From Paenibacillus dokdonensis (GTDB taxonomy: Bacteria; Bacillota; Bacilli; Paenibacillales; Paenibacillaceae), in assembly GCF_004916975.1 (NCBI RefSeq), contig NZ_STGQ01000001.1:1946993-2010992 (forward strand): 64,000 nt of DNA, read 5' to 3'. The translations under genes were made by a program, and so were the position numbers. Numbering within the stretch: position 1 is the stretch's first letter; each line of letters opens with the position of its first letter. The notes beneath the pieces were generated by a model, which had not been told where the DNA came from, searched no databases, and worked only from the letters and a program-made list of their open reading frames with translations. Shown one piece after another: positions 3,934 through 30,509 of this stretch.

Positions 3934-4632
3934 ATGAAAGAAATAAAAGATCGCTCGCTATTGGCAGAGTATATGCACATTCATCAATTGCAGGACATTT
4001 TTAATGAGCCGCTGATCCCGCATATGTGCTTGTACAGCTTTGGACAAGGGGAATTCATATGCTCTCAAGGCGAGCCTGCACATTATTTATATGTTCTCGT
4101 TAAAGGAAAAATCAAAGTATACAACACTTCTACGGAAGGTAAAACGCTGATCATCTCTTTTAAAACAGCACTCGAAGTGATCGGTGATGTTGAATACGTT
4201 CAAGAAGCGGATTTTATCAACACGGTTGAAGCCGTATCTCCCGTATATATGATTGGGATTCATCATCAGTGGGTGAACATGTATGGAAAGGATCATATGC
4301 CACTGCTCCAATTTTTACTGAAAATTATTACGGGAAAGTTCTATATGAAATCGAATGCGCTTAGTTTTAATCTCATGTATCCGGTAGAAGTAAGACTCGC
4401 CAGTTACATCCTGTCGGTATCCTTTGATCCAACTGACGTTTTGTTCAGAGGTCATCTAAGCACATCCGAGTTACGGGATGCGGCGAACCTGATCGGAACG
4501 AGCTACAGGCATCTCAACCGGGTCATTTTACAGCTTTGCAATGAAGGGATTCTTGAACGTGGCAAAGGCTTCATTCATATTAAGGACAGAGAGCGGTTAA
4601 TCACAATCGCGGGTCATAGTATCTACGAATAA
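3934..4632 (+). CDS. Crp/Fnr-family transcriptional regulator (YeiL-like)
   Basis: A 232-residue regulator. An N-terminal cyclic-nucleotide-binding-like beta barrel spans about residues 25-130 (GQGEFICSQGEPAHYLYVLVKGKIKVY). A C-terminal winged helix spans about 165-225 (STSELRDAANLIGTSYRHLNRVILQL). It resembles YeiL more than Fnr: the four N-terminal cysteines that would hold an Fnr iron-sulfur cluster are absent. It lies between the two small DMT transporter genes, with 51 and 25 bases between them, and probably controls them. The effector is unknown. Confidence 0.85.
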   Translation: MKEIKDRSLLAEYMHIHQLQDIFNEPLIPHMCLYSFGQGEFICSQGEPAHYLYVLVKGKIKVYNTSTEGKTLIISFKTALEVIGDVEYVQEADFINTVEAVSPVYMIGIHHQWVNMYGKDHMPLLQFLLKIITGKFYMKSNALSFNLMYPVEVRLASYILSVSFDPTDVLFRGHLSTSELRDAANLIGTSYRHLNRVILQLCNEGILERGKGFIHIKDRERLITIAGHSIYE

Positions 4633-4657
4633 ATGATTGGGTAGGGGAGATAAAATA

Positions 4658-5131
4658 ATGATTTCGGGACTTTTACTAGCCTTGTTGGCCGGTTCACTCG
4701 TTAGTTTGCAAAATATATTTAATAATAAAGTGAATATTCATGTGGGATCCTGGACCACAACAACTTTGGTGCTGGGTCTGGGCTTTGCAGCTTCCTTTAC
4801 GCTCGGCTTGGTGTTTGAAGGTTCTGCAATGTTTGCTTTGCATCATTTGAAGCTCTGGTTTTGCTTCAGCGGATTGATCGGTGTTGGCGTCGTAACCTGT
4901 ATGGTGCAGGGGATCAATCGTCTCGGGCCTACGTTTGCCGTTTCGATCAGCATGTGTGCGCAGCTTGGTTTTGCTTTATTATTTGATTCGATGGGCTGGC
5001 TCGGACTGGAGAAAGTCGACTTTACTTTCAAGCAGCTGATCGGGGTATTGGTCGTTGTTTGCGGTATCATTGTATTTAAGGTTGGTGGACGTGAGAAAAG
5101 AACGGCGAATGAACAGGGGTTGGTCGGATAA
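4658..5131 (+). CDS. small DMT-family transporter (YdcZ/DUF606 type), second copy
   Basis: A 157-residue membrane protein with about five hydrophobic segments, a paralogue of the product of 3457-3882 (both have an N-terminal 'LQ...N' helix and an 'FALLFDSMGWLGL'/'LTFLMDHYGWFGL' segment). ATG 4658 is favoured by GGGGAGA at 4644-4650; the TTG 21 bases upstream has no ribosome site. It follows the Crp/Fnr regulator by 25 bases and is likely in the same operon. Substrate unknown. Confidence 0.8.
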   Translation: MISGLLLALLAGSLVSLQNIFNNKVNIHVGSWTTTTLVLGLGFAASFTLGLVFEGSAMFALHHLKLWFCFSGLIGVGVVTCMVQGINRLGPTFAVSISMCAQLGFALLFDSMGWLGLEKVDFTFKQLIGVLVVVCGIIVFKVGGREKRTANEQGLVG

Positions 5132-5175
5132 GAATACTACAGGTTTAGTAGATTATTCACAAATATTTTAAAGAA

Positions 5176-5217
5176 GATGATAGAGCGGCTGCTTCAAGCC
5201 TGCACTATCATTTTTTT
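5176..5217 (+). terminator. terminator after the DMT/Crp group
   Basis: ATGATAG pairs with CTATCAT, with GC-rich extra pairing inside, followed by a run of T. Confidence 0.65.
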
Positions 5218-5333
5218 GTGCCCCCGCGGAACCACTAGCACAAGACGTATGTTGGCCAATCGAATAATCTTTCCAAGAAAGGGTAATGTTATACAGAATA
5301 TGACTCGCGAACCGGATAAGGGAGGCTTTCAAC

Positions 5334-7037
5334 ATGGAAAATACAAAAAATAAGAATCTAGCAGGGTCAACGATACAGAAGACGGTAGGAGATTACCTTT
5401 TCGATTGTCTGAAGCAGGTGGGAATCACGGAGATTTTTGGCGTGCCCGGCGATTATAATTTCACGTTGCTTGATGCGCTTGAGAGATCTGCAGGCATACG
5501 TTTTATCAATGGCCGGAATGAGCTGAATTCGGGATATGCTGCCGATGCCTACGCTAGAATAAAAGGAATATCGGCATTGATTACAACGTTTGGCGTCGGA
5601 GAAATGAGTGCTTGTAATGCGATTGCTGGAGCCAATAGCGAACATGTGCCCATCATTCACATTGTGGGCTCTCCGCCGGATATGGCTCAGAAAGAGCGTA
5701 AGCTAATGCATCATACGTTAATGGATGGAAATTATGATGCGTTCCGCAAAGTCTACGAACCGATCACGGCCTATACAGCGGTCATTACACCAGAGAATGC
5801 AGCGATCGAAATTCCAAATGCCATCCAAATCGCAAAGCAGAAGAAGAAACCAGTCTATCTTGTCGTTGCGGACGATCTGGTCACGAAGCAGGTCATGGCT
5901 CATCATGAAGCCGCTATGCCAAAACCAAAAACAAATCCGGGTACGCAGCAGGCTGCTCTGGATCATTTTAAACAGATGTTACACTCGGCTCAAAAAACGG
6001 TGATATTGGCTGATGTCAAAACGCAGCGTTTCCATCTGGAGGAATATGTACGCAAGCTTGCTGAATCGATGAATGTGCCGGTAGCATCCACCATGTTCGG
6101 AAAAGGGGCGTTTGATGAAAGCCATCCGTTATTTATAGGAATGTACGGCGGCGCTTTCGGCAGCCCTGAGGTGCGTGAAACGGTAGAAAAAGCGGATTGT
6201 GTTATTGCTGTAGGATTAGTATGGGCGGATACCAATACGACTAACTTTACGGCGAAACTGAATCCACTTCAGATGGTTAATATTCAGCCGGACAAGGTTA
6301 AGGTTGGGGAGGCGGAGTACCCGAATGTGCTTGCGGAAGATATACTGCTGGCATTACAGAATACAGGATATAAGCAGCAAGATACAGTTGCGAAGGGGCA
6401 GTACCCATACGACATGATGGCAGGTAATCCTGATGATCCACTCTCAGCCGTATCCTATTATCCGCGTTTTCAGCGGATGCTGAAAGAAGGGGATGTCGTT
6501 GTAGCGGAGACGGGTACCTTTTTTTACGGAATGGCACAGGTTAAACTTCCACATGCTGTGACATATATTGCCGAAGGTGGTTGGCAGTCCATCGGCTATG
6601 CGACACCATCGGCATATGGTGCCTGTATTGCGGCTCCAGCGCGGAGGGTGCTGCTTTTTACAGGGGATGGTTCTCTGCAGCTTACAGCCCAGGAGATTAG
6701 CTCGATGCTGTATTATGGCTGTAAGCCGGTCATTTTTGTTCTGAATAATGATGGGTATACGATCGAAAAGTACTTAAATGTGAAAACCGAAAACCAGACA
6801 TATAATAAGATTCCGAAGTGGTCTTATACCAAGCTGGCAGAGGCATTCGGAGGGGATGCTTATACGGTCACCGTGTGCACCAATAAGGAATTGGATGAGG
6901 CGATCACCCGTGCGGAAACCGAGTGCAGCAGCAGGTTATGCATCATCGAAATGATCGCAAGCGATCCCATGGATGCTCCGGATTATATGCATAAGATGCG
7001 CGATTATATGGAGCAGCAGGAAAAGCAGCGCAGCTAG
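5334..7037 (+). CDS. ipdC: thiamine-diphosphate 2-oxoacid decarboxylase (indolepyruvate/phenylpyruvate decarboxylase family)
   Basis: A 567-residue cytoplasmic enzyme that removes CO2 from 2-oxo acids to give aldehydes. Seen: the N-terminal family signature EIFGVPGDYNFTLLDALE, the cofactor-activating Glu in RNELNSGYAADAYAR (about residue 62), and the ThDP/Mg motif GDGSLQLTAQE...NNDGYTIEKYL (about 443-476). The length and motifs match the pyruvate/indolepyruvate decarboxylase group rather than acetolactate synthase. In plant-associated Paenibacillus such enzymes are linked to indole-3-acetic acid formation, but the true substrate (indolepyruvate, phenylpyruvate or pyruvate) cannot be read from sequence alone. 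GGAGG precedes the ATG. Confidence 0.85.
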   Translation: MENTKNKNLAGSTIQKTVGDYLFDCLKQVGITEIFGVPGDYNFTLLDALERSAGIRFINGRNELNSGYAADAYARIKGISALITTFGVGEMSACNAIAGANSEHVPIIHIVGSPPDMAQKERKLMHHTLMDGNYDAFRKVYEPITAYTAVITPENAAIEIPNAIQIAKQKKKPVYLVVADDLVTKQVMAHHEAAMPKPKTNPGTQQAALDHFKQMLHSAQKTVILADVKTQRFHLEEYVRKLAESMNVPVASTMFGKGAFDESHPLFIGMYGGAFGSPEVRETVEKADCVIAVGLVWADTNTTNFTAKLNPLQMVNIQPDKVKVGEAEYPNVLAEDILLALQNTGYKQQDTVAKGQYPYDMMAGNPDDPLSAVSYYPRFQRMLKEGDVVVAETGTFFYGMAQVKLPHAVTYIAEGGWQSIGYATPSAYGACIAAPARRVLLFTGDGSLQLTAQEISSMLYYGCKPVIFVLNNDGYTIEKYLNVKTENQTYNKIPKWSYTKLAEAFGGDAYTVTVCTNKELDEAITRAETECSSRLCIIEMIASDPMDAPDYMHKMRDYMEQQEKQRS

Positions 7038-7101
7038 AGTGTAATACATGGTTCTGGATTTGATATATAACAGCATGTCTTTCAGGCAAATCAAGAATTC
7101 C

Positions 7102-7144
7102 CCGTTGTTCGGTCATTGTATTTCACCGGGCAACGGTTTTTTTT
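7102..7144 (+). terminator. terminator after the decarboxylase gene
   Basis: CCGTTGTTCGG pairs with CCGGGCAACGG and is followed by eight T. The stretch 7038-7279 otherwise shows only the next gene's ribosome site; an open frame across it cuts through this hairpin and is judged spurious. Confidence 0.8.
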
Positions 7145-7279
7145 CATCTCGTCTTAACGGAGGGCGGTACGAGCTGAACTCAATGATGAGTGCCGACATT
7201 CTTGCAGAGGATGATGCATTTCTATTATATTTAGACAACGGCGTTCTTTTTTCGGACAAAGTAGATAAGGGGGAATCTT

Positions 7280-8392
7280 ATGGCTGACGCATTAAAATCG
7301 ATGTATAACCGGGATTTTTTTCGGGATTTCGGGGAAAAGGTTAAAGAAGCATACTCCGCTTTTGAGATCGAAGGATTTATAACAAAAATCATGGATGATA
7401 CATGGGAAGAGCTTGCGTTAAAAGCGAGAACCCGCCGGATCAGCGAAACGCTGGGTGAATTTTTGCCGTCAGCTTATGAAGATGCCGTAGGTGTACTGTT
7501 TCAAATTGATGAGAAATGCGTCGGATTTCGATACTTATTTTTTCCGGATTTCGTAGAGGTTTATGGACTGACGGAAGAGCATTGGAGTCTTTCCATGGCG
7601 GCTCTGGAGAGATTCACCCAAAGGTCATCTGCTGAATTTGCGGTAAGATCGTTCATTATCCACGATCCGATACGAATGATGCGGCAAATGCTGGACTGGT
7701 CGCAGCATCCGAGTGAACATGTCAGGCGTCTGGCAAGTGAAGGATGCAGGCCTCGTCTCCCATGGGGGCAAGCGCTGACGATGTTCAAGAAGGATCCTGC
7801 TCCTGTGCTTATGATTTTGGAGCAGTTGAAAGAGGATTCCTCGCTGTATGTCCGCAAAAGCGTGGCCAACAATCTCAATGACATAGCTAAAGATCATCCT
7901 GCTGTAGTGATTAGTCTTGCCAAACGGTGGTTGGGCAGCAATGCCGATACGAACTGGATTGTCAGGCATGCCTGCCGAACCCTGATACGCAAGGCTGATC
8001 CGGAAATTCTGGAGCTTTTTGGCTATGCGAATTCGGACGAAGACGATCCTCTTGCTGCGACCGCAAGCTTGTCTATTGAACCTGAAATGCTCTCGATTGG
8101 CAGCGGCAGCGTGCTGCAATACGCGCTCCGCATCCGTGAGGGGGCATCTGCCCGTGTTCGGATTGAATATGGGATATATTTTGTGAAAGCGAACGGACAG
8201 ACCTCCCGTAAATTATTTTTACTGTCTGATAAAACCGTTCCCGGAGGGTCCGGCTTGAATGGAGAACGCAAGCACAGTTGGGCAGATTTGACGACGCGGC
8301 GCCATTACCCGGGAGAGCACCGGATCGTGTTATTGGTGAATGGACAGGAAGTCGCGGAAACGATGCTCGTCCTTGACAAGGCTTCCCAATAA
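7280..8392 (+). CDS. DNA alkylation repair protein, AlkC-type HEAT-repeat
   Basis: A 370-residue HEAT-like repeat protein. Characteristic features: an N-terminal helical part (MADALKSMYNRDFFRDFGEKVKEAY), 'HPSEHVRRLASEGCRPRLPWGQAL' near residues 148-170, and 'SSLYVRKSVANNLNDIAKDHP' near 192-212. These match the AlkC/AlkD superfamily of glycosylases that excise alkylated bases. The C-terminal 110 residues (from about 262) form an all-beta extension seen in AlkC-type proteins. AAGGGGG lies seven bases before ATG 7280. It appears to be a single gene, with no sign of an ada-type regulator nearby. Confidence 0.82.
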   Translation: MADALKSMYNRDFFRDFGEKVKEAYSAFEIEGFITKIMDDTWEELALKARTRRISETLGEFLPSAYEDAVGVLFQIDEKCVGFRYLFFPDFVEVYGLTEEHWSLSMAALERFTQRSSAEFAVRSFIIHDPIRMMRQMLDWSQHPSEHVRRLASEGCRPRLPWGQALTMFKKDPAPVLMILEQLKEDSSLYVRKSVANNLNDIAKDHPAVVISLAKRWLGSNADTNWIVRHACRTLIRKADPEILELFGYANSDEDDPLAATASLSIEPEMLSIGSGSVLQYALRIREGASARVRIEYGIYFVKANGQTSRKLFLLSDKTVPGGSGLNGERKHSWADLTTRRHYPGEHRIVLLVNGQEVAETMLVLDKASQ

Positions 8393-8567: not shown

Positions 8568-9650
8568 GTGAGCCATATCGTTACACGAAAAGCGGTTGCC
8601 GAGATGGCTGGAGTCTCAGAAGCCACAGTCTCCCGCGTACTCAACAATGTGGGGCCGATGAGGGAAGAGACGAAGCAAAAGGTTCTGGAGGCCGCGGAGA
8701 TTCTTGGCTATTATCCCAATGCCATTGCGCAAAGCTTTGCCCGCCGCCGAAGCGGGAATTTGGGAGTGATTCTCCCTTATGTACCGAAAGTGCATATTTT
8801 TTCAACCTATTATTTCTCGGAGATTTTAAATGGTATTGGAGAGCAGGTACGAGAGCTTGGATATGACATGCTTCTGATTTTTCGGAAACCCAGGCATGAG
8901 AACGGTTACATGGATCTATTCCGCTCGCAAAAGGTGGATGCTTGTATTCTGCTGGGTACGACGGATACGCCTGAGGAACGGACAGCTTTGAAAGCACTGG
9001 AAGAAGCGGGACATCCATTTTGCCTGGTGAACCAGCATTTTGAGGGGGAGCATTTCCTTGAAGTGGATGCAGATCATGAACAAGGTGCTTATGAAGCGGT
9101 GAAGCATTTGCTTAATGAGGGATACCGCAAGATTGCTTTTCTGAATGGTCCGCCGCAATACTCCAATAGTTTGGATCGTTTGAAGGGGTATGTACGGGCG
9201 ATGACTGAAGCAGGACTGTTTAACCCTGATAAAAGCATAACTGAAGCGGTTCCTCCAGAATGGCTGAATTCGGGGAATTACAGCAGAACAAGCGGATATG
9301 AGGCTGCTTCACGTTTCTTTTGCAATAAAGATCATATTGAAGCGGTCTTTGCTGCGAATGACCGTATGGCGATCGGGCTGATGCAGGGTTTTCGGGATTT
9401 GGGCGTGCTTCCGGGCAAGGATGTCGCCATTGCGGGATACGATGATTCGGACGCGGCGAGGATTACGGATCCTCCGCTGACGAGTGTCGCGGTACCTTTT
9501 TACCAGATGGGGGTGATGGCTGCCAAGCTGCTGCTATCGGATTCTGGATCAGAAGATTCTGAGATGGATGGCGCATTTGATCATCGGCAGCAGGTCCAAT
9601 TGGGGACGAAACTGATTGTTCGTTCATCAAGCAAGGGTAACCAGGCATAG
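8568..9650 (+). CDS. LacI-family transcriptional regulator
   Basis: A 360-residue repressor. The N-terminal helix-turn-helix and hinge are clear (RKAVAEMAGVSEATVSRVLN, about residues 7-26; then YYPNAIAQSFARRRSGNLGV). A periplasmic-binding-protein-like sugar domain follows, with AVFAANDRMAIGLMQGFRDLG and IAGYDDSDAA near 262-300. Translation starts at GTG 8568. The downstream operon (oxidoreductase, ThuA-like, oxidoreductase) is separated by about 40 bases and is probably its target; the effector is likely a sugar or sugar acid, inferred from the neighbours. Confidence 0.93.
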   Translation: MSHIVTRKAVAEMAGVSEATVSRVLNNVGPMREETKQKVLEAAEILGYYPNAIAQSFARRRSGNLGVILPYVPKVHIFSTYYFSEILNGIGEQVRELGYDMLLIFRKPRHENGYMDLFRSQKVDACILLGTTDTPEERTALKALEEAGHPFCLVNQHFEGEHFLEVDADHEQGAYEAVKHLLNEGYRKIAFLNGPPQYSNSLDRLKGYVRAMTEAGLFNPDKSITEAVPPEWLNSGNYSRTSGYEAASRFFCNKDHIEAVFAANDRMAIGLMQGFRDLGVLPGKDVAIAGYDDSDAARITDPPLTSVAVPFYQMGVMAAKLLLSDSGSEDSEMDGAFDHRQQVQLGTKLIVRSSSKGNQA

Positions 9651-22331: not shown

Positions 22332-24077
22332 ATGAAAAAAACTCGCATAAAGATTGGGATTGCTATTTTGAGCACAAGTCTTGCATTGAGCGCTTGCAGT
22401 ACAAGCACGGACAAGAATGCCAATAAAACCGAACCTGCCCCTGCACCTAATCCTTCTGAGAGCACACCAACACCTGCAGAACCAGGAAAGGTCACGGGAA
22501 CTTCTTTTAAAAACTTTGGTACATATGGCTTTGATTTAAAAAATACACGTCATGTGCCTTATAAAGAAGTCACCGCCGAGAACGTGAAAGATTTGGGAAT
22601 GATTTGGAGCGCGGATCTCAAGGCGCTGGACAAGGACGTGAAGAACGGAAACCAATGCTACCCTGTTGTCGTTGATGGTGTTGTGTATATTACCACAGCA
22701 GGAAATCAGGTTTTCGCCTTCGATGCCGTAACGGGCGGACCGATCTGGCACTGGAAGCCTTCCGCGGAACAGGCCGCAAACTTCAGCAAGGCAGGGATCA
22801 TTGCAAACCGGGGTGTCGCCGTTGGCGAAGGCAAAGTATTCATGCTCACCGTGGACAATCAAATCGTTTCCTTGGATCAGAAGACAGGCAAACTCGTCAA
22901 AATGGTGCCGATCTCCGACTCCGTCAAAGGAGTAACTTTGGAAAACGGGTATTACGAGACAACGGCTCCCGTGTATTATAAGGGAAATATTTATATCGGC
23001 AGCAGTGGCGGCGATAATGGCATCCGTGGTTTCGTGAATGCTTACAAAGCGAGCGATTTGACGCCCGCATGGGATACGCCATTCTGGACAGTTCCTCCCA
23101 AAGGCCAAGACTGGCTGGCAAACAGTAAGTTCCAAGGCGGGGGGGCAGTATGGAATCCTCCGGCCATTGACGAAGAGACGGGAATCATGTATTTTGCGGT
23201 CGGCAACCCCGCACCAAATTTTTACGGCGAATCTAGGCCGGGAGACAACCCTTACACAGACTCGGTTGTTGCCGTCAATGCATCAACGGGCAAGCTGATC
23301 TGGGCGAAGCAGGAAATTAGCCACGACCTCTGGGATTATGATGCCGCTGCTTCGCCGATGATCCTGAATGCAACCGTAAAAGGGAAGAAACAAAAAATCG
23401 TTGTTCAGGGCGGGAAGTCGGGACAATGGTTTGCATGGGATGCGAAAACGGGGAAAGTGGTCTGGGATGGCATTCCTTTTGCCAAGATCGATCATCCGAA
23501 ACCGACGCCGGAAGGCGTAACCGTTTATCCGGGCGTGCTTGGCGGGGAAAACTATGCCCCCGAAACGTATGATCCCAAGACCAATTACGTGCTGATTCCG
23601 GGTATTGAACAGGGGGCTCTCCTGAAGTCGGCGAAAAATCAGGATGAAGCGTCCACGCCTGACGCGCCGGGAGCTGCCGCATTTGGTACGACAACATTGG
23701 CGGCCCAAAACGACGTAGCTTTCGGGACAATCACCGCCATGGATGTAAACACAGGGAAAAAAGCATATCAAGTCAAGACGAAAGACCCGATGCGCGGGGG
23801 GTTCACGAGTACCGTAGCCGGGTTGGCCTTCTATGGTGAGTTAGACGGGAAAATTAACGCACTTGATATCAAATCAGGAAAAGTGATTTGGACTTTTCAA
23901 ACAACGGGCAACAGCGTTCAAGCTGCACCGGCGATTTTTACAGTAGACGATAAACAATACATTACCTTCACGACCGGTGGTGTAACCCCCCAAGTTTTCG
24001 TGTTTGGGCTCGGTGGAGACAAAACGCAAGGCAAAGCCGGCACCGCCGAAGATACGAATGCGCACCAGAAAAAATAG
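22332..24077 (+). CDS. PQQ-dependent dehydrogenase, lipoprotein (quinoprotein alcohol dehydrogenase family)
   Basis: A 581-residue exported quinoprotein. A lipoprotein signal peptide ends at LSAC (cysteine about residue 22), followed by a Pro/Ala linker to about 55. The body has the beta-propeller repeats of PQQ alcohol dehydrogenases: 'CYPVVVDGVVYITTAGNQVFAFD', 'NRGVAV', 'GGDNGIRGFVNAY', 'AVGNPAPNFYGE' (Ca2+/PQQ Asn), and 'ISHDLWDYDAAASPM' with the catalytic-type Asp. No CxxCH haem motif and no vicinal Cys-Cys pair are visible. An AAGGGG site precedes ATG. It is probably fed with PQQ made by the pqq genes 2 kb downstream. Substrate unknown. Confidence 0.85.
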   Translation: MKKTRIKIGIAILSTSLALSACSTSTDKNANKTEPAPAPNPSESTPTPAEPGKVTGTSFKNFGTYGFDLKNTRHVPYKEVTAENVKDLGMIWSADLKALDKDVKNGNQCYPVVVDGVVYITTAGNQVFAFDAVTGGPIWHWKPSAEQAANFSKAGIIANRGVAVGEGKVFMLTVDNQIVSLDQKTGKLVKMVPISDSVKGVTLENGYYETTAPVYYKGNIYIGSSGGDNGIRGFVNAYKASDLTPAWDTPFWTVPPKGQDWLANSKFQGGGAVWNPPAIDEETGIMYFAVGNPAPNFYGESRPGDNPYTDSVVAVNASTGKLIWAKQEISHDLWDYDAAASPMILNATVKGKKQKIVVQGGKSGQWFAWDAKTGKVVWDGIPFAKIDHPKPTPEGVTVYPGVLGGENYAPETYDPKTNYVLIPGIEQGALLKSAKNQDEASTPDAPGAAAFGTTTLAAQNDVAFGTITAMDVNTGKKAYQVKTKDPMRGGFTSTVAGLAFYGELDGKINALDIKSGKVIWTFQTTGNSVQAAPAIFTVDDKQYITFTTGGVTPQVFVFGLGGDKTQGKAGTAEDTNAHQKK

Positions 24078-24086
24078 ATATGGAAG

Positions 24087-24118
24087 ACAGGGTAAGGCTA
24101 TTCCAAGCATTACCCTGT
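24087..24118 (+). terminator. possible weak terminator or attenuator
   Basis: ACAGGGTAA pairs with TTACCCTGT across 14 bases, without a clean T-run, between the quinoprotein and the following lipoprotein. It may modulate rather than end transcription. Confidence 0.4.
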
Positions 24119-24173
24119 TTGCATTTCAGACCGCATTTTGCAAAGCCGTTAGAAAGGAGTAAGAAATGAACCG

Positions 24174-25301
24174 ATGAAGTTCTTTTATAATGCGCCAATT
24201 CTTCTCTTACTGGCCGCATACCTTGCCGGTTGTACGGTGAAACCGCCGCAGTCGGCCTCTGCAACGTCTCCGTTATTGCCATCGGGGACGAAACACATCG
24301 TTCGATTAGACATCGATCAACCTCATGTACCGCTTAAACAGTGGAAAGCGGACGGATCCCATATAGCCTCTGTGAAAGGAAAGCTGCTTCTAGATAATCA
24401 GCCCGTCGTGAATGGCATTCTGCACATAACGAACAGCTCGAATCAGGTCGTAACTGGCCGGGACGGATCATTCCGGTTGAACATTGACCAGAGCCTTCTG
24501 TCTGACATCAAAGTCAATGTAGCTTCACTTGACCAAGCGACCGTTTCCGGAAAGCATCTTACTGAAGTGATGTCCAAGGAACTCCAAGCTGCCTCGGCGG
24601 CAGTCAGCGTGTATTATCCTATTCGAGTGATAAGGGTCGAAGACTTTCCTGCGGATGCTTCAAAGGTTCAAGTACACGGGCAGATCATTCCCGCCAAGGG
24701 TGATGTGGTATCTTATTTCCAAGTGGATAAATACCGAATGGGCGGGGTTATCAAGGACGCGGACGGTAAACCTGTTGAGCATGCGGTTGTTTGGTTCGAC
24801 CGGGATTTGGGGGAGGGATTTGGAAAATCGACTCCCACAGATCGGGAGGGACGCTATTCCATTTACTATTGGCCCGAAGATGAAGAAACGAATTTATCGG
24901 TAACGCTCGGAACCAAGCGATACACGCTGCCCAAAGGCAAAGTGTTTAAGATGCCTGAAAATACGAGCGTTGAGATCGACATAACTTTACCACGAACAGG
25001 TACGGTCCTCGTCGATGCACCTCCGGCCCTGGTCAGCGTCACATCAGCGGGAGCTATGTACACCGGGGTATTGGTAGGATTGAATGTGCCTAAAGACGTC
25101 CCGTACTCTGTCTCAATTCCGGACAAACATGGAAGTTTCATCCTTACGGTCTCGAAAAAAGTATGGGAGCAAGAGCCGGCCTTTTTCGAAACAACAGCCT
25201 CTAAATTTGTTGAGGGCAGATTATACGGGGGAGACACTCTTCCTCCTAACTATATCGAGGCAGTCGAAGAAGACCCGAAGAATATTAAGCCATTTATGTA
25301 G
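24174..25301 (+). CDS. lipoprotein with carboxypeptidase-regulatory-like beta domains
   Basis: A 375-residue lipoprotein of unknown function (lipobox LAGC at about residue 19). Two stretches have the fold pattern of carboxypeptidase regulatory-like domains: 'GKLLLDNQPVVNGILHITN...VVTGRDGSFRLNI' (about 65-105) and 'GGVIKDADGKPVEHAVVWFDRD...TDREGRYSIYYWP' (about 190-240). The ATG is preceded at a distance by AAAGGAGT, with a three-codon frame (24166-24177, stop overlapping this start) in between. Its position after the quinoprotein suggests that the two work together at the cell surface, which is inference. Confidence 0.75.
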   Translation: MKFFYNAPILLLLAAYLAGCTVKPPQSASATSPLLPSGTKHIVRLDIDQPHVPLKQWKADGSHIASVKGKLLLDNQPVVNGILHITNSSNQVVTGRDGSFRLNIDQSLLSDIKVNVASLDQATVSGKHLTEVMSKELQAASAAVSVYYPIRVIRVEDFPADASKVQVHGQIIPAKGDVVSYFQVDKYRMGGVIKDADGKPVEHAVVWFDRDLGEGFGKSTPTDREGRYSIYYWPEDEETNLSVTLGTKRYTLPKGKVFKMPENTSVEIDITLPRTGTVLVDAPPALVSVTSAGAMYTGVLVGLNVPKDVPYSVSIPDKHGSFILTVSKKVWEQEPAFFETTASKFVEGRLYGGDTLPPNYIEAVEEDPKNIKPFM

Positions 25302-25330
25302 CAGAAACCTTGATATTGAAACCGTCCTTC

Positions 25331-25368
25331 AAAAGCCCTGACAATAACGCATTGTCAGGGCTTTTTCT
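25331..25368. terminator. bidirectional terminator
   Basis: AAAAGCCCTGACAAT and ATTGTCAGGGCTTTTT form a 15-bp stem with a five-base loop, shared by the converging lipoprotein and WGxxGxxG genes. Confidence 0.9.
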
Positions 25369-25392
25369 ATCCTACAATTAAGTTTTTATGAG

Positions 25393-25836
25393 TTAACTGC
25401 GTTCGCGATCCGAATTTTTGTTCCGCATTCCCGCAAGTCCGAATAAACCGAGTAGACCAAGCCATCCCCAACTGCCGACACCTCGATTAGTTGTGGTTGA
25501 ATTCGTGTGCAGCCCACGGTCTGTGGAGTTCGACAGCATATCCGGCCGATTGCCGTTATAGTTGGTTGTTTCCATCCTTCCTGTATCAATCATTCGATTC
25601 TTCGTATTCAAATACTGGCTTCCCGTACTTGTTCCATAGACGCTTACATCATAGTTTGGTCCTGTCCCCACCTCGTTTACTTTATAGTTAGAACCGTTGT
25701 TCGTTTTCGCGGTTCCCATGCCGTTACCCATTCCGCCATTGCCGCCATCCTCTGCCGCTGTATGCGCATAGGCTGGAACCGCCAACATCAAGGACAAGCC
25801 TGCGACCAATAAGCCGCCTTTGATTTGTCTTTTCAT
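25393..25836 (-). CDS. secreted WGxxGxxG-family protein
   Basis: A 147-residue exported protein. An N-terminal signal peptide (KGGLLVAGLSLMLAVPAYA) is followed by a low-complexity region rich in Gly, Asn and Thr. The C-terminus is WGWLGLLGLFGLAGMRNKNSD, a WGxxGxxG-type hydrophobic segment followed by a basic tail, as in small WGxxGxxG-CTERM proteins of Bacillota. These are thought to be surface anchored; the function is unknown. It is on the strand opposite to the quinoprotein and pqq genes and starts about 210 bases from pqqA. Confidence 0.85.
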   Translation of the reverse strand: MKRQIKGGLLVAGLSLMLAVPAYAHTAAEDGGNGGMGNGMGTAKTNNGSNYKVNEVGTGPNYDVSVYGTSTGSQYLNTKNRMIDTGRMETTNYNGNRPDMLSNSTDRGLHTNSTTTNRGVGSWGWLGLLGLFGLAGMRNKNSDRERS

Positions 25837-25943
25837 AGGGTACCTACCTTTGGTGTGTGATTTTTATTCCTTGCAATTAGTGTGTGACATCGCTTCCGGT
25901 CTTATACAATCCTAGCGAACTGGCCGAATAGGCGAAGGGGGTT

Positions 25944-25988
25944 TCATTGTTATAGAACGCCAAACAGAAACATAGGATATAACAATGA
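25944..25988. promoter_or_regulatory. 10-bp inverted repeat upstream of pqqA
   Basis: TCATTGTTAT (25944-25953) and ATAACAATGA (25979-25988) are perfect inverted copies separated by 25 bases, 58 bases before pqqA. It could be an operator, with the two half-sites about 3.5 helical turns apart, or an RNA hairpin. The rest of 25837-26045 holds no clear consensus promoter. Confidence 0.4.
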
Positions 25989-26045
25989 TTCTCAGTTTTT
26001 TTCTCCTTATACAGATGGATAGCAGGATCTCCGGGGGGTGAGGGA

Positions 26046-26117
26046 ATGTGGGTTAAGCCTGAGTTTGAAGTCATTGAAGTATGCGCCGAAGTTACTGCAT
26101 ATGCGTATCAAAAGTAA
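26046..26117 (+). CDS. pqqA: PqqA-type precursor peptide for pyrroloquinoline quinone
   Basis: A 23-residue peptide beginning MWVKPEFEVI. PqqA supplies the Glu and Tyr from which PQQ is built, and its hallmark is E-V-T-x-Y. Here this is AEVTAY, with Glu15 and Tyr19 at the family's fixed Glu-x-x-x-Tyr spacing; the MW-KP start also agrees with pseudomonad PqqA. A strong ribosome site (GGGGGTGAGGG) precedes ATG 26046. It is 55 bases upstream of pqqB, in the right order. It is too short for length-filtered ORF searches and may be missed in annotations. Confidence 0.88.
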   Translation: MWVKPEFEVIEVCAEVTAYAYQK

Positions 26118-26172
26118 AGTCATCAACCATATGCCGGAGCAATCCGGCATCTATTTTTTAGGGGGGAAGAAC

Positions 26173-27090
26173 ATGTTCTTGAAGGTGCTGGGATCAGCGG
26201 CAGGAGGAGGTTTTCCGCAATGGAATTGTGACTGCCCTAACTGCCGCCGTGTCCGGTCGAATGACCGTTCATTTTACAACCGAATGCATAATTCCCTGGC
26301 CCTTAGCGATAATGGGGAAAAATGGTATTTATTTAACGCGACCCCGGATGTGCGTTCGCAAATTGAATCCCATGCCGAGCTTCAGCCGGGTTTAAGGATA
26401 CGAAATACGCCTGTATTAGGGGTGCTGCTTACCGATGCGGAACTGGATCATACAATCGGATTACTTCAGTTGAGAGAATCTGCGGAATTGGAGGTTTACG
26501 CGGCGCCTCCTGTACTCAATGCCCTTCAAGAGCAATTTCCTGTTCGAAAAATGCTCGAACCCTATGCGAAATTTCGATGGTTGGCAGCGAGGCCTGATGA
26601 ATCTTTGCCACTTTTTGGGGGAAGAGTAATCGTATATCCGTTTTATTTAGGCAGCAAGCCTCCGCGATACGCTTCCATTCATGAAAATAAGAGTACTGTG
26701 CCATCTTCCCCTTGGGTAATCGGATATCGAATCGTGGATCAAAGTACGGGGGGGACGGCCATATATGCGCCCGGAGTCGAACAATGGACGGAAGAGCTGG
26801 AACAACAACTGGAACATGCGGACTGCGTTTTCATGGACGGAACCTTTTGGCATTCGGATGAACTTAACCGTTTAAACATCTCCGAGCTGGTTGCGGCAGA
26901 TATGGGGCATATCCCCATTACCGGTCCGAGTGGCAGCCTTGAGCGCTTTGCCAAGGTATCTGCAGATCGTAAAATTTATATTCACATCAATAATACCAAT
27001 CCGATTCTTGACGAAGACTCTCAGGAGAATCTTCGCCTCAGGCAGCTGGGCATTGAGGTTAGTTATGACGGTTTGGAATTGGAGGTTTAA
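26173..27090 (+). CDS. pqqB: PqqB, pyrroloquinoline quinone biosynthesis
   Basis: A 305-residue metallo-beta-lactamase-fold protein of the PQQ pathway; in Gram-negative bacteria PqqB is proposed to hydroxylate a tyrosine-derived precursor. The N-terminus MFLKVLGSAAGGGFPQWNCDCPNC is diagnostic (split here: FPQWNCDCPNCRRVR), and 'LLTDAELDHTIGLLQLRE' holds the variant metal site (about residues 85-100). The frame extends upstream without a ribosome site, but ATG 26173 follows AGGGGGGAAG and gives the normal length. It begins the pqqBCDE operon. Confidence 0.95.
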   Translation: MFLKVLGSAAGGGFPQWNCDCPNCRRVRSNDRSFYNRMHNSLALSDNGEKWYLFNATPDVRSQIESHAELQPGLRIRNTPVLGVLLTDAELDHTIGLLQLRESAELEVYAAPPVLNALQEQFPVRKMLEPYAKFRWLAARPDESLPLFGGRVIVYPFYLGSKPPRYASIHENKSTVPSSPWVIGYRIVDQSTGGTAIYAPGVEQWTEELEQQLEHADCVFMDGTFWHSDELNRLNISELVAADMGHIPITGPSGSLERFAKVSADRKIYIHINNTNPILDEDSQENLRLRQLGIEVSYDGLELEV

Positions 27091-27092
27091 AT

Positions 27093-27803
27093 TTGAACGC
27101 TTATTTATTGTCCAACGAAGAATTAACAATGAGGTTAAGGCAAGTCGGGGAATTACGATACCACGATAAACACCCCTATCACATACGGATGCATGAGGGA
27201 AAGTTAAGTCCGGAGCAGCTTCGAGCTTGGGTTGCGAATCGATTTTATTATCAAAAGAACATCCCGGTCAAAGATGCTCTCATTCTGTCCAAACTCCCGA
27301 CGAGTGAAGATCGGCGCAAATGGATTCAGCGTATCATGGACCACGATGGGACAACGGGTAATGAAGGTGGAATCGAAGCCTGGATTCGTCTTGGCGAAGC
27401 TGTAGGGATCCCTAGAGAGGAAATGCTGGATGAGCGTCATGTGCTGCCGGGCGTTCGTTTCGCGGTGGATGCCTACGTGAACTTCTGCCGTAATCAACCT
27501 TGGCTCGTAGCCGTTGCTTCCTCATTAACGGAAATGTTTGCACCTATTCTCATTTCCCACAGAATCGCAGTGTTTGAACAGCTGTATCCATGGATACAAC
27601 CGGAAGGGCTGGAGTATTTCCAATCCAGGCTGCACCAGGCGCCACGCGATGCGGATCACGGACTTGAACTCGTATTGCGCGAATGCAAAGATCGCATGGA
27701 TCAAGATCAAACCATCGCCGCACTTCAGTTCAAATGCGACGTACTGTGGGCCCTTCTTGATGCGTTAAGCTTGGCATATCCAAATATGGAGGACGAGCGA
27801 TGA
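27093..27803 (+). CDS. pqqC: PqqC, pyrroloquinoline-quinone synthase
   Basis: A 236-residue oxygen-dependent enzyme that closes the second ring and completes PQQ. The 'HPYHIRMHEGKLSPEQLRAWVANRFYYQKNIPVKDA' region (about residues 24-60) holds the family's active-site His, Arg and Tyr. It starts at TTG 27093, with GGAGG seven bases upstream and a two-base gap from the pqqB stop, so translation is probably coupled. It is slightly shorter than the roughly 250-residue norm, but the core is complete. Confidence 0.95.
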   Translation: MNAYLLSNEELTMRLRQVGELRYHDKHPYHIRMHEGKLSPEQLRAWVANRFYYQKNIPVKDALILSKLPTSEDRRKWIQRIMDHDGTTGNEGGIEAWIRLGEAVGIPREEMLDERHVLPGVRFAVDAYVNFCRNQPWLVAVASSLTEMFAPILISHRIAVFEQLYPWIQPEGLEYFQSRLHQAPRDADHGLELVLRECKDRMDQDQTIAALQFKCDVLWALLDALSLAYPNMEDER

Positions 27804-28078
27804 TACAATGGGAGCTATCGGAGCGGCTCCGGCTGCGCAGCCCGGCTCGGATAAAATTTGACAAAACAAGGCAAACCGATTTGCTTCTTCTTCCCGAACG
27901 GGTCGTTCATCTGAACCCTACCGCCGGAGCGATTCTTTGGTTATGCGATGGTGAGCGGACTGTTTCACAAATCATTGGGGAACTGGAGACCAAATACAAT
28001 CAACCGGAACTGAAAACGGATATTCTGGACTTTCTGACACAAGCGACAGACAGAGGGTGGGTGGAAATATGGAAGTAA
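27800..28078 (+). CDS. pqqD: PqqD, peptide chaperone
   Basis: A 92-residue protein that binds PqqA and presents it to PqqE. Typical PqqD motifs are visible: 'LLLPERVVHLNPTAGAILWLCDGERTVSQIIGELETKY' (split: PERVVHLNPTAGAILWLCDG near 31-50). Its ATG overlaps the pqqC stop (ATGA), and pqqE starts inside its 3' end at 28069, so the three genes are translated as a coupled unit. Confidence 0.94.
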   Translation: MIQWELSERLRLRSPARIKFDKTRQTDLLLLPERVVHLNPTAGAILWLCDGERTVSQIIGELETKYNQPELKTDILDFLTQATDRGWVEIWK

Positions 28079-29178
28079 GCATACCCTATGCGCTTACGGC
28101 GGAGCTTACACATCGTTGTCCCCTGCACTGCGTGTATTGCTCGAATCCGATCGAGCTCCAAAAAAGGGAACATGAACTTACGACTCGGGAGTGGATCAAA
28201 GTATTGGAAGAAGCAAGCGACATGGGGATAGTACAGGTTCATCTTACGGGCGGGGAGCCGCTTTTGCGGCCAGACGTAAACCAGCTTATTGAGCGAGCCC
28301 GCGAGTTAGGTCTTTTTGTAAATTTAATTACAAGCGGTGTCGGAGTCACTGAAAACCGTATCCGGCAGTTGGCAAGCGCAGGGATTGACAGTATTCAATT
28401 AAGCATGCAAGCTCCAACGGCTGACCTCGCTGATTCGATTGCAGGCTCCCATGCACACGAATTCAAAAAAAGAACCGCGAAATGGATACGTGCTGCGGGT
28501 CTCCCTTTACATATGAACGTTGTACTGCACAGGCAAAACATACATTTGGTGGAGAATATAATCGAGCTTTGCGTGTCGTGGGGAGCGGAGCGGCTCGAGC
28601 TAGCCAACACCCAGTATTATGGCTGGGCTCTTATAAACCGCCAGCACTTGCTTCCAACAAGGGAGCAGCTCACAGGCGCTGAAGAGGCTTATGTACGTGC
28701 AAAAGAACGCTTTGACAACAAGATCGAACTGATCTGGGTAATCCCGGATTATTATGAGGAGTTCCCCAAACCTTGTATGGGAGGATGGGGGAAACTATCC
28801 ATGACGGTGACGCCTGATGGAAAAGTACTGCCCTGTACCGCGGCATCCGATATCCAAACGATGACATTCGAATCCGTGAAAGAGAAGAGTTTAAAATGGA
28901 TTTGGGAGGATTCTGCCTCTTTTCGCGCCTATCGCGGACTCGACTGGATGACAGAGCCCTGCCGAAATTGTGAACACCGTTTTCGGGATTTTGGGGGCTG
29001 CCGTTGTCAAGCATATCTATTGACAGGCGACTCCAGTCAAGCAGATCCGGTATGTAAGTTTTCGCCTCATCATCATCTGGTCACCGATTTCGTCGCCTCC
29101 ATGAACGAAAAAGACGCTTACCGTTCCGACTCCGATCCTAATCGGCTTTTGCCCTCATACTCTTATCGCAGCAGGTGA
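28069..29178 (+). CDS. pqqE: PqqE, radical SAM PQQ cross-linking enzyme
   Basis: A 369-residue radical SAM enzyme that joins the Glu and Tyr side chains of PqqA. The CxxxCxxC cluster is CPLHCVYC (about residues 15-22), followed by HLTGGEPLLR (about 60-69). The C-terminal SPASM domain has cysteines in 'CMGGWGKLSMTVTPDGKVLPC' (split: PDGKVLPCTAA) and 'CRNCEHRF...GGCRCQA'. ATG 28069 is favoured because it gives the usual MEVSIPYALTAELTHRCPL start; the in-frame GTG 28057 adds four residues. It lies at the end of the coupled pqqCDE set. Confidence 0.95.
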   Translation: MEVSIPYALTAELTHRCPLHCVYCSNPIELQKREHELTTREWIKVLEEASDMGIVQVHLTGGEPLLRPDVNQLIERARELGLFVNLITSGVGVTENRIRQLASAGIDSIQLSMQAPTADLADSIAGSHAHEFKKRTAKWIRAAGLPLHMNVVLHRQNIHLVENIIELCVSWGAERLELANTQYYGWALINRQHLLPTREQLTGAEEAYVRAKERFDNKIELIWVIPDYYEEFPKPCMGGWGKLSMTVTPDGKVLPCTAASDIQTMTFESVKEKSLKWIWEDSASFRAYRGLDWMTEPCRNCEHRFRDFGGCRCQAYLLTGDSSQADPVCKFSPHHHLVTDFVASMNEKDAYRSDSDPNRLLPSYSYRSR

Positions 29179-29207
29179 GCAGGTAACCATAAACGGAGGA
29201 CTTGCCC

Positions 29208-30158
29208 ATGAAAATATTTGATGCCCATTGTGATGTGCTGAGCAAACTATTGGAAGATCCCCGGCTTGATTTTATACAGGAGAAGGATCGGTTGGACGTG
29301 ACGCTCGAACGCATGCTCGAATCCAAGATCGGCTTTCAAAATTTCGCGGTCTATTTACCTGTATCATTTGCCGGAGAATTCCGGCATGTCCTTCAAAGTA
29401 TCGATCTTTTTTACGAACGAATTCTCTCAAACCGGCAAATTCATTTGATCCAAACTGAAGACGATTTAAGGTATGCCCATAACAAAGGCTTGATCGGGGC
29501 GCTGTTGTCGCTTGAAGGCGTAGATGCACTTCAGGGGAACATAACTTATCTAAGAATTTTATATTATTTGGGCGTTCGGAGTATCGGCATTACCTGGAAC
29601 TACGCGAATTGGGCTGCGGATGGCGTCCTGGAGCAGCGGCAGGGTGGATTCACGGCACAAGGGATGAACCTGATCACAGAATGCAACCGGCTGGGCATGA
29701 TCCTGGACGTATCGCATCTATCCGAAAAGGCCTTCTGGGAGCTGCTGACACGATCCGATAAGCCGTTTATTGCCTCTCACTCCAATTCCAGCAGAATATG
29801 CCCGAAACTCAGAAATCTGAATGATGAGCAGATAACTTCAATCATCCAAACCGGGGGAGTTATAGGGCTAACCTTTGTTCCGCCTTTCGTGCATGCGGAG
29901 GAACCGGTAACGATGGATCGTTTACTGTCTCACATCGATCATATTTGTTCGCTAGGCGGCAGCCGGCATATCGGATTCGGCTCTGATTTCGACGGAATCA
30001 AAGAGAAAATCACCGGCTTGGAACATGCAGGGAAATATCATCAACTTATCGAATTGCTACAGAAGAATTACAGCGAAGAAGATGTGGAACATTTCATCTA
30101 TAAAAATTGGTATCATTTTTATATGGATCATTTGCCATCCCATCATCGTATAGAATAA
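29208..30158 (+). CDS. M19 (renal-type) dipeptidase
   Basis: A 316-residue metallo-dipeptidase. It opens with IFDAHCDVLSKLLE, whose His and Asp are the first zinc ligands. 'GALLSLEGVDAL' (about residues 103-114) carries the bridging Glu, 'LDVSHLSEKAFWEL' (about 165-178) a His, and 'ASHSNSSRI' and 'GFGSDFDGI' the later sites. GGAGGA seven bases before ATG 29208 decides the start. It follows pqqE by 29 bases and may clean up or help cut the PqqA peptide, since no M16 protease (PqqF/G) is seen; this is inference. A terminator follows. Confidence 0.88.
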   Translation: MKIFDAHCDVLSKLLEDPRLDFIQEKDRLDVTLERMLESKIGFQNFAVYLPVSFAGEFRHVLQSIDLFYERILSNRQIHLIQTEDDLRYAHNKGLIGALLSLEGVDALQGNITYLRILYYLGVRSIGITWNYANWAADGVLEQRQGGFTAQGMNLITECNRLGMILDVSHLSEKAFWELLTRSDKPFIASHSNSSRICPKLRNLNDEQITSIIQTGGVIGLTFVPPFVHAEEPVTMDRLLSHIDHICSLGGSRHIGFGSDFDGIKEKITGLEHAGKYHQLIELLQKNYSEEDVEHFIYKNWYHFYMDHLPSHHRIE

Positions 30159-30248: not shown

Positions 30249-30509
30249 CTATGAATGAGATTCGAGGTTGGTCGTACTTTTGGCTTCAAAGGTTTCGATG
30301 GCTTCAGTGCCTGCTCTTGCGGACTCTTGCTGTTCGAACATTTTGCCGATCTTCCACCCGATCCCTATGTTCAATACGGCCATTGCCGCAAATAAGACCA
30401 CGTCTCCCCAGGGCTCCGGAAGAAGCAGGTCTGCCAGTAACCAGCCACCAGTCATTGTACCTCCCAAGATTGCACCTTTTACGGATGACTTTAAGTAAGT
30501 TTTCCCCAT
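30249..30509 (-). CDS. small membrane protein
   Basis: An 86-residue protein of unknown function. Residues about 12-32 (GAILGGTMTGGWLLADLLLPE) and 36-55 (GDVVLFAAMAVLNIGIGWKIG) are hydrophobic, followed by a charged tail. GGGGGGT precedes the ATG at 30509 on the minus strand; the longer open frame upstream has no ribosome site. It converges on the pqq-linked dipeptidase gene and sits before the glnS leader on the opposite strand. Confidence 0.6.
   Translation of the reverse strand: MGKTYLKSSVKGAILGGTMTGGWLLADLLLPEPWGDVVLFAAMAVLNIGIGWKIGKMFEQQESARAGTEAIETFEAKSTTNLESHS

Follow-up and report, generated by a model that had tools for sequence, protein, structure and literature searches.

Can a bacterium with a single membrane make its own pyrroloquinoline quinone (PQQ) and use it in an oxidation system on the outer face of that membrane? 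The question is raised by a locus of Paenibacillus dokdonensis within a stretch of 64,000 nucleotides (bases 1946993–2010992 of contig 1; hereafter the window, in whose numbering the features of the locus are given) from a genome of 6.48 Mb that is 99.98% complete. The locus holds the five genes pqqA to pqqE and, near them, a gene for a lipoprotein quinoprotein dehydrogenase (QP), and its closest named match was a record of P. chibensis (L003), of the same genus, with identities of 88% in PqqC and 92% in QP. Our results point to a single-membrane PQQ oxidation module, which we predict as the probable nature of the system. The pathway is of a known kind in an uncommon host; what is new is a small membrane protein (c13), the exchange of cytochrome c for a cupredoxin, a pair of aspartates in QP (DxD) and a hairpin between pqqA and pqqB.

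The roles of PqqA to PqqE in PQQ synthesis are established. In the window, each of the five proteins scored above the curated equivalog cut-off of its NCBIfam model, and the genes followed one another on the plus strand in the order A-B-C-D-E: pqqA at 26046–26117 (TIGR02107, 24.0 bits, cut-off 20), pqqB at 26173–27090, starting at the ATG of MFLKVLG (TIGR02108, 387.7 bits, cut-off 245), pqqC at 27093–27803 (TIGR02111, 330.7 bits, cut-off 240), pqqD at 27800–28078 (TIGR03859, 80.3 bits, cut-off 46) and pqqE, encoding a radical SAM/SPASM protein, at 28069–29178 with an alternative GTG start at 28057 (TIGR02109, 509.7 bits, cut-off 381.35). With five equivalog models passed, chance or misread genes were ruled out, and the preliminary description, which had all five genes readable and in order, was confirmed. 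PqqA is a precursor peptide of 23 residues, MWVKPEFEVIEVCAEVTAYAYQK, with its E-x3-Y pair at residues 15 and 19. Among 40 sequences examined (the window, L003–L040 and L075), the ExxxY motif was present in all 39 PqqA-like peptides found next to pqqB, and no such peptide was found beside pqqB in L016. The genes from pqqB to pqqE were tightly packed, with pqqB ending at 27090 and pqqC starting at 27093, a pqqC/pqqD overlap of 4 bases, and pqqD ending at 28078 against a pqqE ATG at 28069. Translational coupling, claimed earlier for the whole set, is thus supported from pqqB to pqqE but not for pqqA, which lies 55 bases from pqqB with the hairpin in between. Away from the pqq operon, a second PqqD-like domain (L002; contig 1 of the same genome, 1448492–1448656) perhaps belongs to another peptide-modifying cluster.

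QP (22332–24077, plus strand) has 581 residues and a propeller of the PQQ alcohol dehydrogenase kind, assigned from PF01011 (265.5 bits, gathering cut-off 26.7), alignments to Protein Data Bank (PDB) enzymes and an AlphaFold model. A lipobox, LSAC, was recognized by eye and its Cys22 was invariant in 18 aligned sequences, which upholds the earlier reading of a lipoprotein quinoprotein near the pqq genes. An alignment was built of 49 distinct rows, 43 from Paenibacillaceae and Bacillaceae (the Bacilli rows) and six from farther away, with identical sequences and those aligning fewer than 450 query residues excluded. Arg160, Trp274, Asn292, Asp335 and Asp337 were invariant in all 49 rows, residue 362 was Lys in 43 of 43 Bacilli rows, and residue 228 was Asp in the 43 Bacilli rows and Glu in the six far ones. 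We take Asp335 to be the catalytic Asp, Asn292 the metal Asn and Trp274 the stacking Trp, and the roles of Arg160 and Lys362 are presumed likewise. Most PQQ-contact positions were kept in the alignment to PDB enzymes, among which quinohaemoprotein and membrane alcohol dehydrogenases were the best sequence matches. The model (mean predicted local distance difference test score, pLDDT, 72.8, with low-confidence loops that include active-site residues 331–336) matched solved PQQ dehydrogenases at Z 30.0–33.8 over 435–489 residues, values that do not tell alcohol, sorbose and methanol types apart. None of 570 matching plasmid records reached 60% identity to QP. In one relative (L012) the sequence reads HDMRDYDA, with Arg replacing the Trp that precedes the catalytic Asp.

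Several observations make this assignment less than straightforward. Its score on TIGR03075 (305.7 bits) was under the cut-off of 480, so that it is a relative of that family rather than counted as a member, and its second-best NCBIfam match was TIGR04528, the “acido-empty-quinoprotein” family (275.8 bits, cut-off 650). The vicinal Cys pair was missing, being replaced by A154-G155, and was missing from all 43 Bacilli rows, whereas the six far rows had Cys-Cys. Gln stood at position 108 in 37 of the 43 Bacilli QPs where Gram-negative enzymes have Glu. Designed propellers, YxaL and BamB reached Z 29–33 against the QP model; since such non-enzymatic propellers come into much the same range, the structural match shows a fold and no function.

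The co-occurrence of synthesis genes and QP was counted in a sample of 197 Paenibacillaceae genomes, where a maker was a genome with PqqC over its cut-off and a QP relative was a match with E below 1e-100. PqqC passed in 16 of the 197, with weak sub-cut-off matches in six more, and in three of 398 genomes drawn across the phylum, the host's own included. QP was found in 23 of the 197, among them all 16 makers (Fisher 1.9e-18, uncorrected for ancestry). The seven QP genomes with neither pqqC nor pqqE over cut-off (L118, L119, L130, L133, L135, L178 and L179) were all of genus code g13, which they share with nine of the makers; it follows that owning QP needs no PQQ making. Among 39 Bacilli pqq loci (L003–L040 and L075), pqq genes and QP lay within about 10 kb of each other in 25. 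The claim that QP uses the PQQ made here has all 16 makers and the retained PQQ and metal residues in its favor, and the seven non-makers among 23 QP genomes to its disadvantage.

Candidates for an electron path came from a second QP gene of the host (contig 1, 3367593–3369374), whose product was 69% identical to the window QP. Its locus (L110; contig 1, 3361000–3376000) contained, in its own numbering, QP at 6591–8378, two lipoproteins with Ig-like or carboxypeptidase-regulatory-like domains (CPreg) on one side at 5398–6498 and 4188–5294, a cupredoxin lipoprotein on the other at 9081–9518, and no pqq genes. The cupredoxin sequence CSVMCGAGHDNM, with HGLE, provides a His and the CxxxCxxxHxxM ligand set, which we take to be the CuA pattern. 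It scored 43.1 bits on PF13473 (cut-off 27) and matched the copper domains of NosZ and CoxB far under the whole-protein cut-offs, and two more copies were encoded elsewhere in the host genome. The CPreg gene of the window (24174–25301, plus strand) was assigned from PF13620, its neighborhood and a model (pLDDT 84.1) of beta-sandwich domains, for which the fold matches were common Ig-like domains (best Z 9.4) that indicate no particular function. Around 38 Paenibacillaceae QP genes, counted without a truncated duplicate (L161) and seven Neobacillus rows, CPreg lay within 2.5 kb of at least 35 and the cupredoxin within 2.5 kb of at least 26, many flanks reaching only about 1.5 kb; both adjoined QP in seven of seven QP-only genomes. 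None of the seven Neobacillus rows had a cupredoxin or CPreg neighbor (one of these rows repeats the L040 gene in truncated form, and in some cases the flank was 1.5 kb). Two Neobacillus QPs with DxD instead carried a C-terminal cytochrome c domain (L037, 5825–7750) or a C-terminal CxxCH recognized by eye (L040, 6435–8420). From this swap of cupredoxin for cytochrome c, we infer that the cupredoxin accepts the electrons of QP. The 12 of 38 Paenibacillaceae QP genes with no cupredoxin within 2.5 kb, the window QP with its CPreg among them, speak against this. The system had been described as self-contained, which fits the full pqq set with an exported quinoprotein; it fits less well with the cupredoxin and second QP lying 1.4 Mb away, and with the seven QP genomes of 23 that have no pqqC or pqqE over cut-off.

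On the basis of the genes, their order, conservation and co-occurrence, and the identity of key residues, we infer the following course of events. PqqA to PqqE, judged by family membership, would build PQQ from Glu15 and Tyr19 of PqqA inside the cytoplasm, and the M19 dipeptidase encoded after pqqE may trim the cross-linked PqqA fragment. PQQ would then leave the cell and fill the lipoprotein QP, whose propeller would sit on the membrane's outer face. There QP would oxidize a substrate of the alcohol or sugar type, using a metal presumably held by Asp228, Asn292, Asp335 and Asp337. Electrons would pass from QP to the CuA-like cupredoxin lipoprotein and on to a terminal oxidase. The membrane protein c13, retained only in genomes that combine home-made PQQ with QP, may help to export PQQ or to hand it over. 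The module in its most specific form, in which c13 passes home-made PQQ across the membrane to a lanthanide-dependent lipoprotein QP that reduces a CuA-type cupredoxin lipoprotein, is rather unlikely to hold in every part.

The gene of c13 (30249–30509, minus strand) lies convergently downstream of the M19 gene and encodes a membrane protein of 86 residues, probably with two helices, around the core GGWLLADLLLPEPWGD. No Pfam or NCBIfam family matched over cut-off, the only Pfam hit, DUF3180, being below cut-off with E 0.13 (E 0.046 when the L003 relative was searched), and no PDB sequence matched at E up to 1. Among 34 distinct rows, one was a fragment and the rest shared GGWL-x2-DLL-x-P-x-P-x-GD or nearly so. 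The second hydrophobic stretch was clear (17-residue mean up to 1.83), and the charges, judged by eye, suggest that both ends lie inside and the conserved turn outside.

In the 197 genomes, c13 was present in 16, exactly the pqqC set, and missing from the seven QP-only genomes. A second set of 24 genomes had c13 in eight of eight Bacilli with pqq and QP, none of ten makers without QP, neither of two far Bacillota with pqqC (G401, G520) and none of four other makers. In the 39 Bacilli loci, whose counts overlap those of the 197 genomes, it accompanied pqq and QP in 29 of 29 cases, 24 within the locus and five elsewhere in the genome, and pqq alone in none of ten. Genomes with only one of the two, whether pqq or QP, thus dispense with c13, a pattern that fits the bringing of home-made PQQ to QP. 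Help with the export of home-made PQQ or with its handover to QP is, judged from this distribution, the most likely function of c13, and the pattern would be compatible alike with export, handover, assembly or regulation.

We regard as evenly balanced the question of whether c13 is instead a mere passenger of the cluster, or acts in the regulation or assembly of the pathway, rather than delivering PQQ. It lies within 24 of the 39 Bacilli pqq loci, so that shared history could explain the co-occurrence, and several of the ten c13-less makers are closely related. On a QP tree of the 23 genomes and an outgroup, the maker state changed five times, three of the switches being forced by starred branches, and with so few a test by independent pairs fell short of significance (p 0.25). 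As the c13 set is the maker set, c13 follows the same switches, and relatedness weakens its statistic. Delivery of PQQ is made less secure, too, by the weak hydrophobicity of the first helix (best 17-residue mean 1.39) and by the hint at function coming, as it seems, from distribution alone. Against a mere passenger stand the absence of c13 both where makers lack QP and where QP owners lack pqq, and its retention in five genomes on a different contig from pqqC (G052, G149, G606, G206 and G197; draft assemblies). In the stretches read around these five off-contig copies, none of the labelled genes was pqq, QP or a partner, and aldo/keto-reductase-like and amidase-like neighbors each recurred in two of the five genomes. 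To our knowledge, the route of PQQ out of the cytoplasm is unsettled, and c13, present exactly where PQQ making and QP ownership coincide, offers a candidate for this exit that can be tested. If the assignment is true, c13 would be the first protein known to us with an assigned part in PQQ export or handover. The question of export is simpler in single-membrane bacteria, which have no outer membrane.

The metal of QP is the second point at which the module may be read differently. A second Asp two residues past the catalytic Asp, as in Asp335/Asp337 of QP, was found in PedH (6zcw) and XoxF (6dam), whereas 8gy2, 1kv9 and 1kb0 have Thr there, and from this DxD pair we predict that QP uses a lanthanide or at least accepts one. 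That QP is an ordinary calcium-dependent PQQ alcohol or sugar dehydrogenase, in which DxD does not mean lanthanide, is an explanation to be taken seriously, and we hold it only somewhat less probable than its opposite. It accords with the acid ligand at 228, which is Asp in all 43 Bacilli rows and Glu in the six far rows, and with the best PDB sequence matches, presumably calcium-type enzymes. Less easily accommodated are the presence of DxD in 49 of 49 QP rows and its restriction, among the five aligned enzymes compared, to the lanthanide enzymes PedH and XoxF, with the three others lacking it. The motif is used as a lanthanide signature and is also present, according to the available text of PMC11996626, in membrane glucose dehydrogenases characterized with other metals, so that lanthanide use by QP stays a prediction. 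If DxD quinoproteins do use lanthanides, rare-earth enzymology would reach the Bacillota, with QP the first lanthanide enzyme of that phylum known to us.

A third explanation concerns the source of the cofactor: the pathway may work while QP takes its PQQ mostly from outside. The PQQ made by a cell would then be released as a public good, and QP owners would be scavengers among makers. As QP lies outside the only membrane, scavenging would need no importer. Such scavenging would account for the seven QP genomes of 23 with no pqqC or pqqE over cut-off; five of them (L118, L119, L130, L133 and L135) were aligned and keep the PQQ and metal residues, and all seven keep cupredoxin and CPreg beside QP. 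PQQ scavenging is also described as common in Gram-negatives in the accessible part of PMC12124388. We nevertheless consider this explanation unlikely, as QP occurs in all 16 sampled makers, as at 25 of the 39 Bacilli loci QP is no more than about 10 kb from the pqq genes, and as c13 is found only where the two co-occur. The seven QP-only genomes, of one genus code, are themselves possible PQQ scavengers without an outer membrane, and relatives that are makers and users, makers only and users only form a ready system for studying PQQ sharing. It is very improbable that QP is an empty quinoprotein whose propeller no longer binds PQQ, with the pqq genes serving something else: the sub-cut-off TIGR03075 score, the second match to TIGR04528 and the lost Cys pair are outweighed by the catalytic Asp, metal Asn, Arg and stacking Trp kept in 49 of 49 rows and Lys362 in 43 of 43 Bacilli rows (roles presumed as above), and by QP in all 16 pqqC genomes.

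Ten makers had no QP match (L026–L033, L036 and L075, comprising P. tyrfis, P. elgii, P. ehimensis, P. oleatilyticus and relatives, FJAT-26390 and DMB20). All ten encoded another candidate PQQ enzyme, with matches to PF07995, of the glucose/sorbosone dehydrogenase type, at a best E of 5.6e-76 or better, whereas three of four comparison genomes had none and the fourth, the host's own, had a weak one (9e-7). This contrast may be a clade effect, the comparison genomes being of one genus. Eight PF07995 matches of the QP-less makers (L152–L157 and others) lay in open frames of 1148–1233 residues, possibly large sugar dehydrogenases.

The hairpin between pqqA and pqqB (26131–26150, plus strand) has the core GCCGGA-GCAA-TCCGGC, eight pairs and a T-rich tail. 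Among 35 Paenibacillaceae-type loci (L003–L036 and L075), the GCCGGA-loop-TCCGGC core was found in 30, always between pqqA and pqqB and once per locus, with nearly invariant stem letters and a loop mostly of the GNRA type; it was not found in L012, L013, L014, L016 and L018. The T-rich tail was present in the window and some relatives and missing in others. One further copy of the core lay in the window at 29370, within the dipeptidase gene, and the hairpin had no Rfam match. A general scan gave seven promoter sites against 13.5 expected and seven terminators against 10.3; as these counts are below expectation, the scan itself is no evidence and the case for the hairpin rests on conservation. 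It may raise the pqqA message relative to that of pqqB to pqqE.

Downstream of pqqE, the M19 membrane-dipeptidase family gene (29208–30158, plus strand, alternative TTG start 29202; PF01244, 326.2 bits, cut-off 26) encodes a protein that matched solved M19 enzymes, including GliJ, which we take to be an enzyme of gliotoxin synthesis. The preliminary description, whose coordinates take in this gene, made no mention of it. That its product trims the cross-linked fragment of PqqA is a guess, weakened by the gene following pqqE in only 16 of the 35 Paenibacillaceae-type loci (identity 61–80%). A second M19 gene was present elsewhere in the host genome. In the open-licence literature, the sole paper that might have tied an M19 dipeptidase to PQQ synthesis concerned PvdM of pyoverdine, and such a published role was rejected. 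Between QP and pqqA lie two genes, that of CPreg on the plus strand and, on the minus strand, that of a WGxxGxxG family protein (25393–25836; NF041742, 49.6 bits, cut-off 35) with a signal peptide recognized by eye. The latter is a recurrent neighbor, found by tblastn at 15 of the 35 Paenibacillaceae-type loci. At ten loci (L012 at 7646–8212, L013, L014, L016, L017, L018, L019, L021, L025 and L035), an MntP-like cation exporter gene was located upstream of pqqA, near the WGxxGxxG gene.

The origin of the pqq genes was addressed with a tree of PqqB, PqqC and PqqE from the window and the best 80 of 117 loci by PqqC likeness, inferred by a quick method with no bootstrap. The 36 Paenibacillaceae-type rows, the window included, formed one clade of their own, separate from Pseudomonadota (support of 100 in the Shimodaira–Hasegawa-like approximate likelihood ratio test, SH-aLRT), which answers the earlier question of whether these sets group with Gram-negative ones. 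A 44-row set (support 99) added four Neobacillus, one Limnochordaceae and three Obscuribacterales rows, again apart from Pseudomonadota; several outer rows were long, the join with Neobacillus and Obscuribacterales contains long branches, and far branches were thinly sampled. A recent transfer from Proteobacteria was unsupported by this tree. The Bacillota bin L064 grouped with Actinomycetota, and Marinobacterium stanieri (L072, L076) had two separate pqq loci in one genome.

PQQ synthesis had been presented as a classically Gram-negative trait. The full set in a Bacillota genome stands, but Gram-positive PQQ is already in print, as far as the available parts of the sources go: Mycobacterium smegmatis has a PQQ cassette that includes a dehydrogenase of its own (PMC3023750); from Actinobacteria come PQQ synthesis and, in an isolate, a single xoxF5-like product of the polymerase chain reaction (PCR) (PMC5606694); and gcd, pqqC, pqqD, pqqE and pqqL are called frequent over 428 Paenibacillus genomes (PMC12926252). 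The last statement, as worded in the accessible text, is tempered by our finding of PqqC in 16 of 197 Paenibacillaceae genomes. Of 18 phosphate-solubilising isolates, eight of them Gram-positive, 16 gave short pqqC PCR products, and pqqA came only from six Pseudomonas (PMC10147649, available part). An attempt to amplify pqqE from Bacillus subtilis KPS-11 failed (PMC4460431, likewise). Within the titles and abstract beginnings of the open-licence literature, no lanthanide enzyme or PQQ operon of Paenibacillus, Cohnella or other Bacillota was found save the pqq genes of PMC12926252 and the PCR products of PMC10147649, and the same partial texts gave no account of a PQQ operon in Bacillota that has this quinoprotein, c13 or the hairpin.

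Compared with the systems already known, the window set resembles Gram-negative pqqABCDE operons in having the same five families in the same order and a 23-residue PqqA with E15-x3-Y19. It differs in its position on a PqqB, PqqC and PqqE branch of its own with Neobacillus and Obscuribacterales, and in an M19 gene after pqqE, a conserved hairpin between pqqA and pqqB, and c13. The proteases PqqF and PqqG belong to Gram-negative pqq pathways. Actinobacterial PQQ systems share a Gram-positive host, and the cassette of M. smegmatis includes a single TIGR03075-type dehydrogenase, MSMEG_3726 (PMC3023750, available part). Yet the Actinomycetota rows lie elsewhere in the tree, the best QP segments of L054 and L055 were 29% identical to that of the window, and c13 was not found in the L054 genome.

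Among the dehydrogenases, QP is similar in fold to PedH (6zcw) and XoxF (6dam, 4mae), with Z of 32.9, 33.1 and 31.6, and shares the catalytic and second Asp with 6zcw and 6dam. It differs from them in being a lipoprotein on a single membrane, in having no vicinal Cys pair and Asp rather than Glu at 228, and in that genes of its type neighbor a cupredoxin and not a cytochrome c, its metal being a prediction. The quinohaemoprotein alcohol dehydrogenases (1kb0, 1kv9, 1yiq) are among the best PDB matches, and the Neobacillus relatives, with a propeller and C-terminal cytochrome c, resemble them in architecture; the window QP, by contrast, has no haem domain, and near most QP genes of Paenibacillaceae a CuA-like cupredoxin lipoprotein is encoded by a gene of its own.

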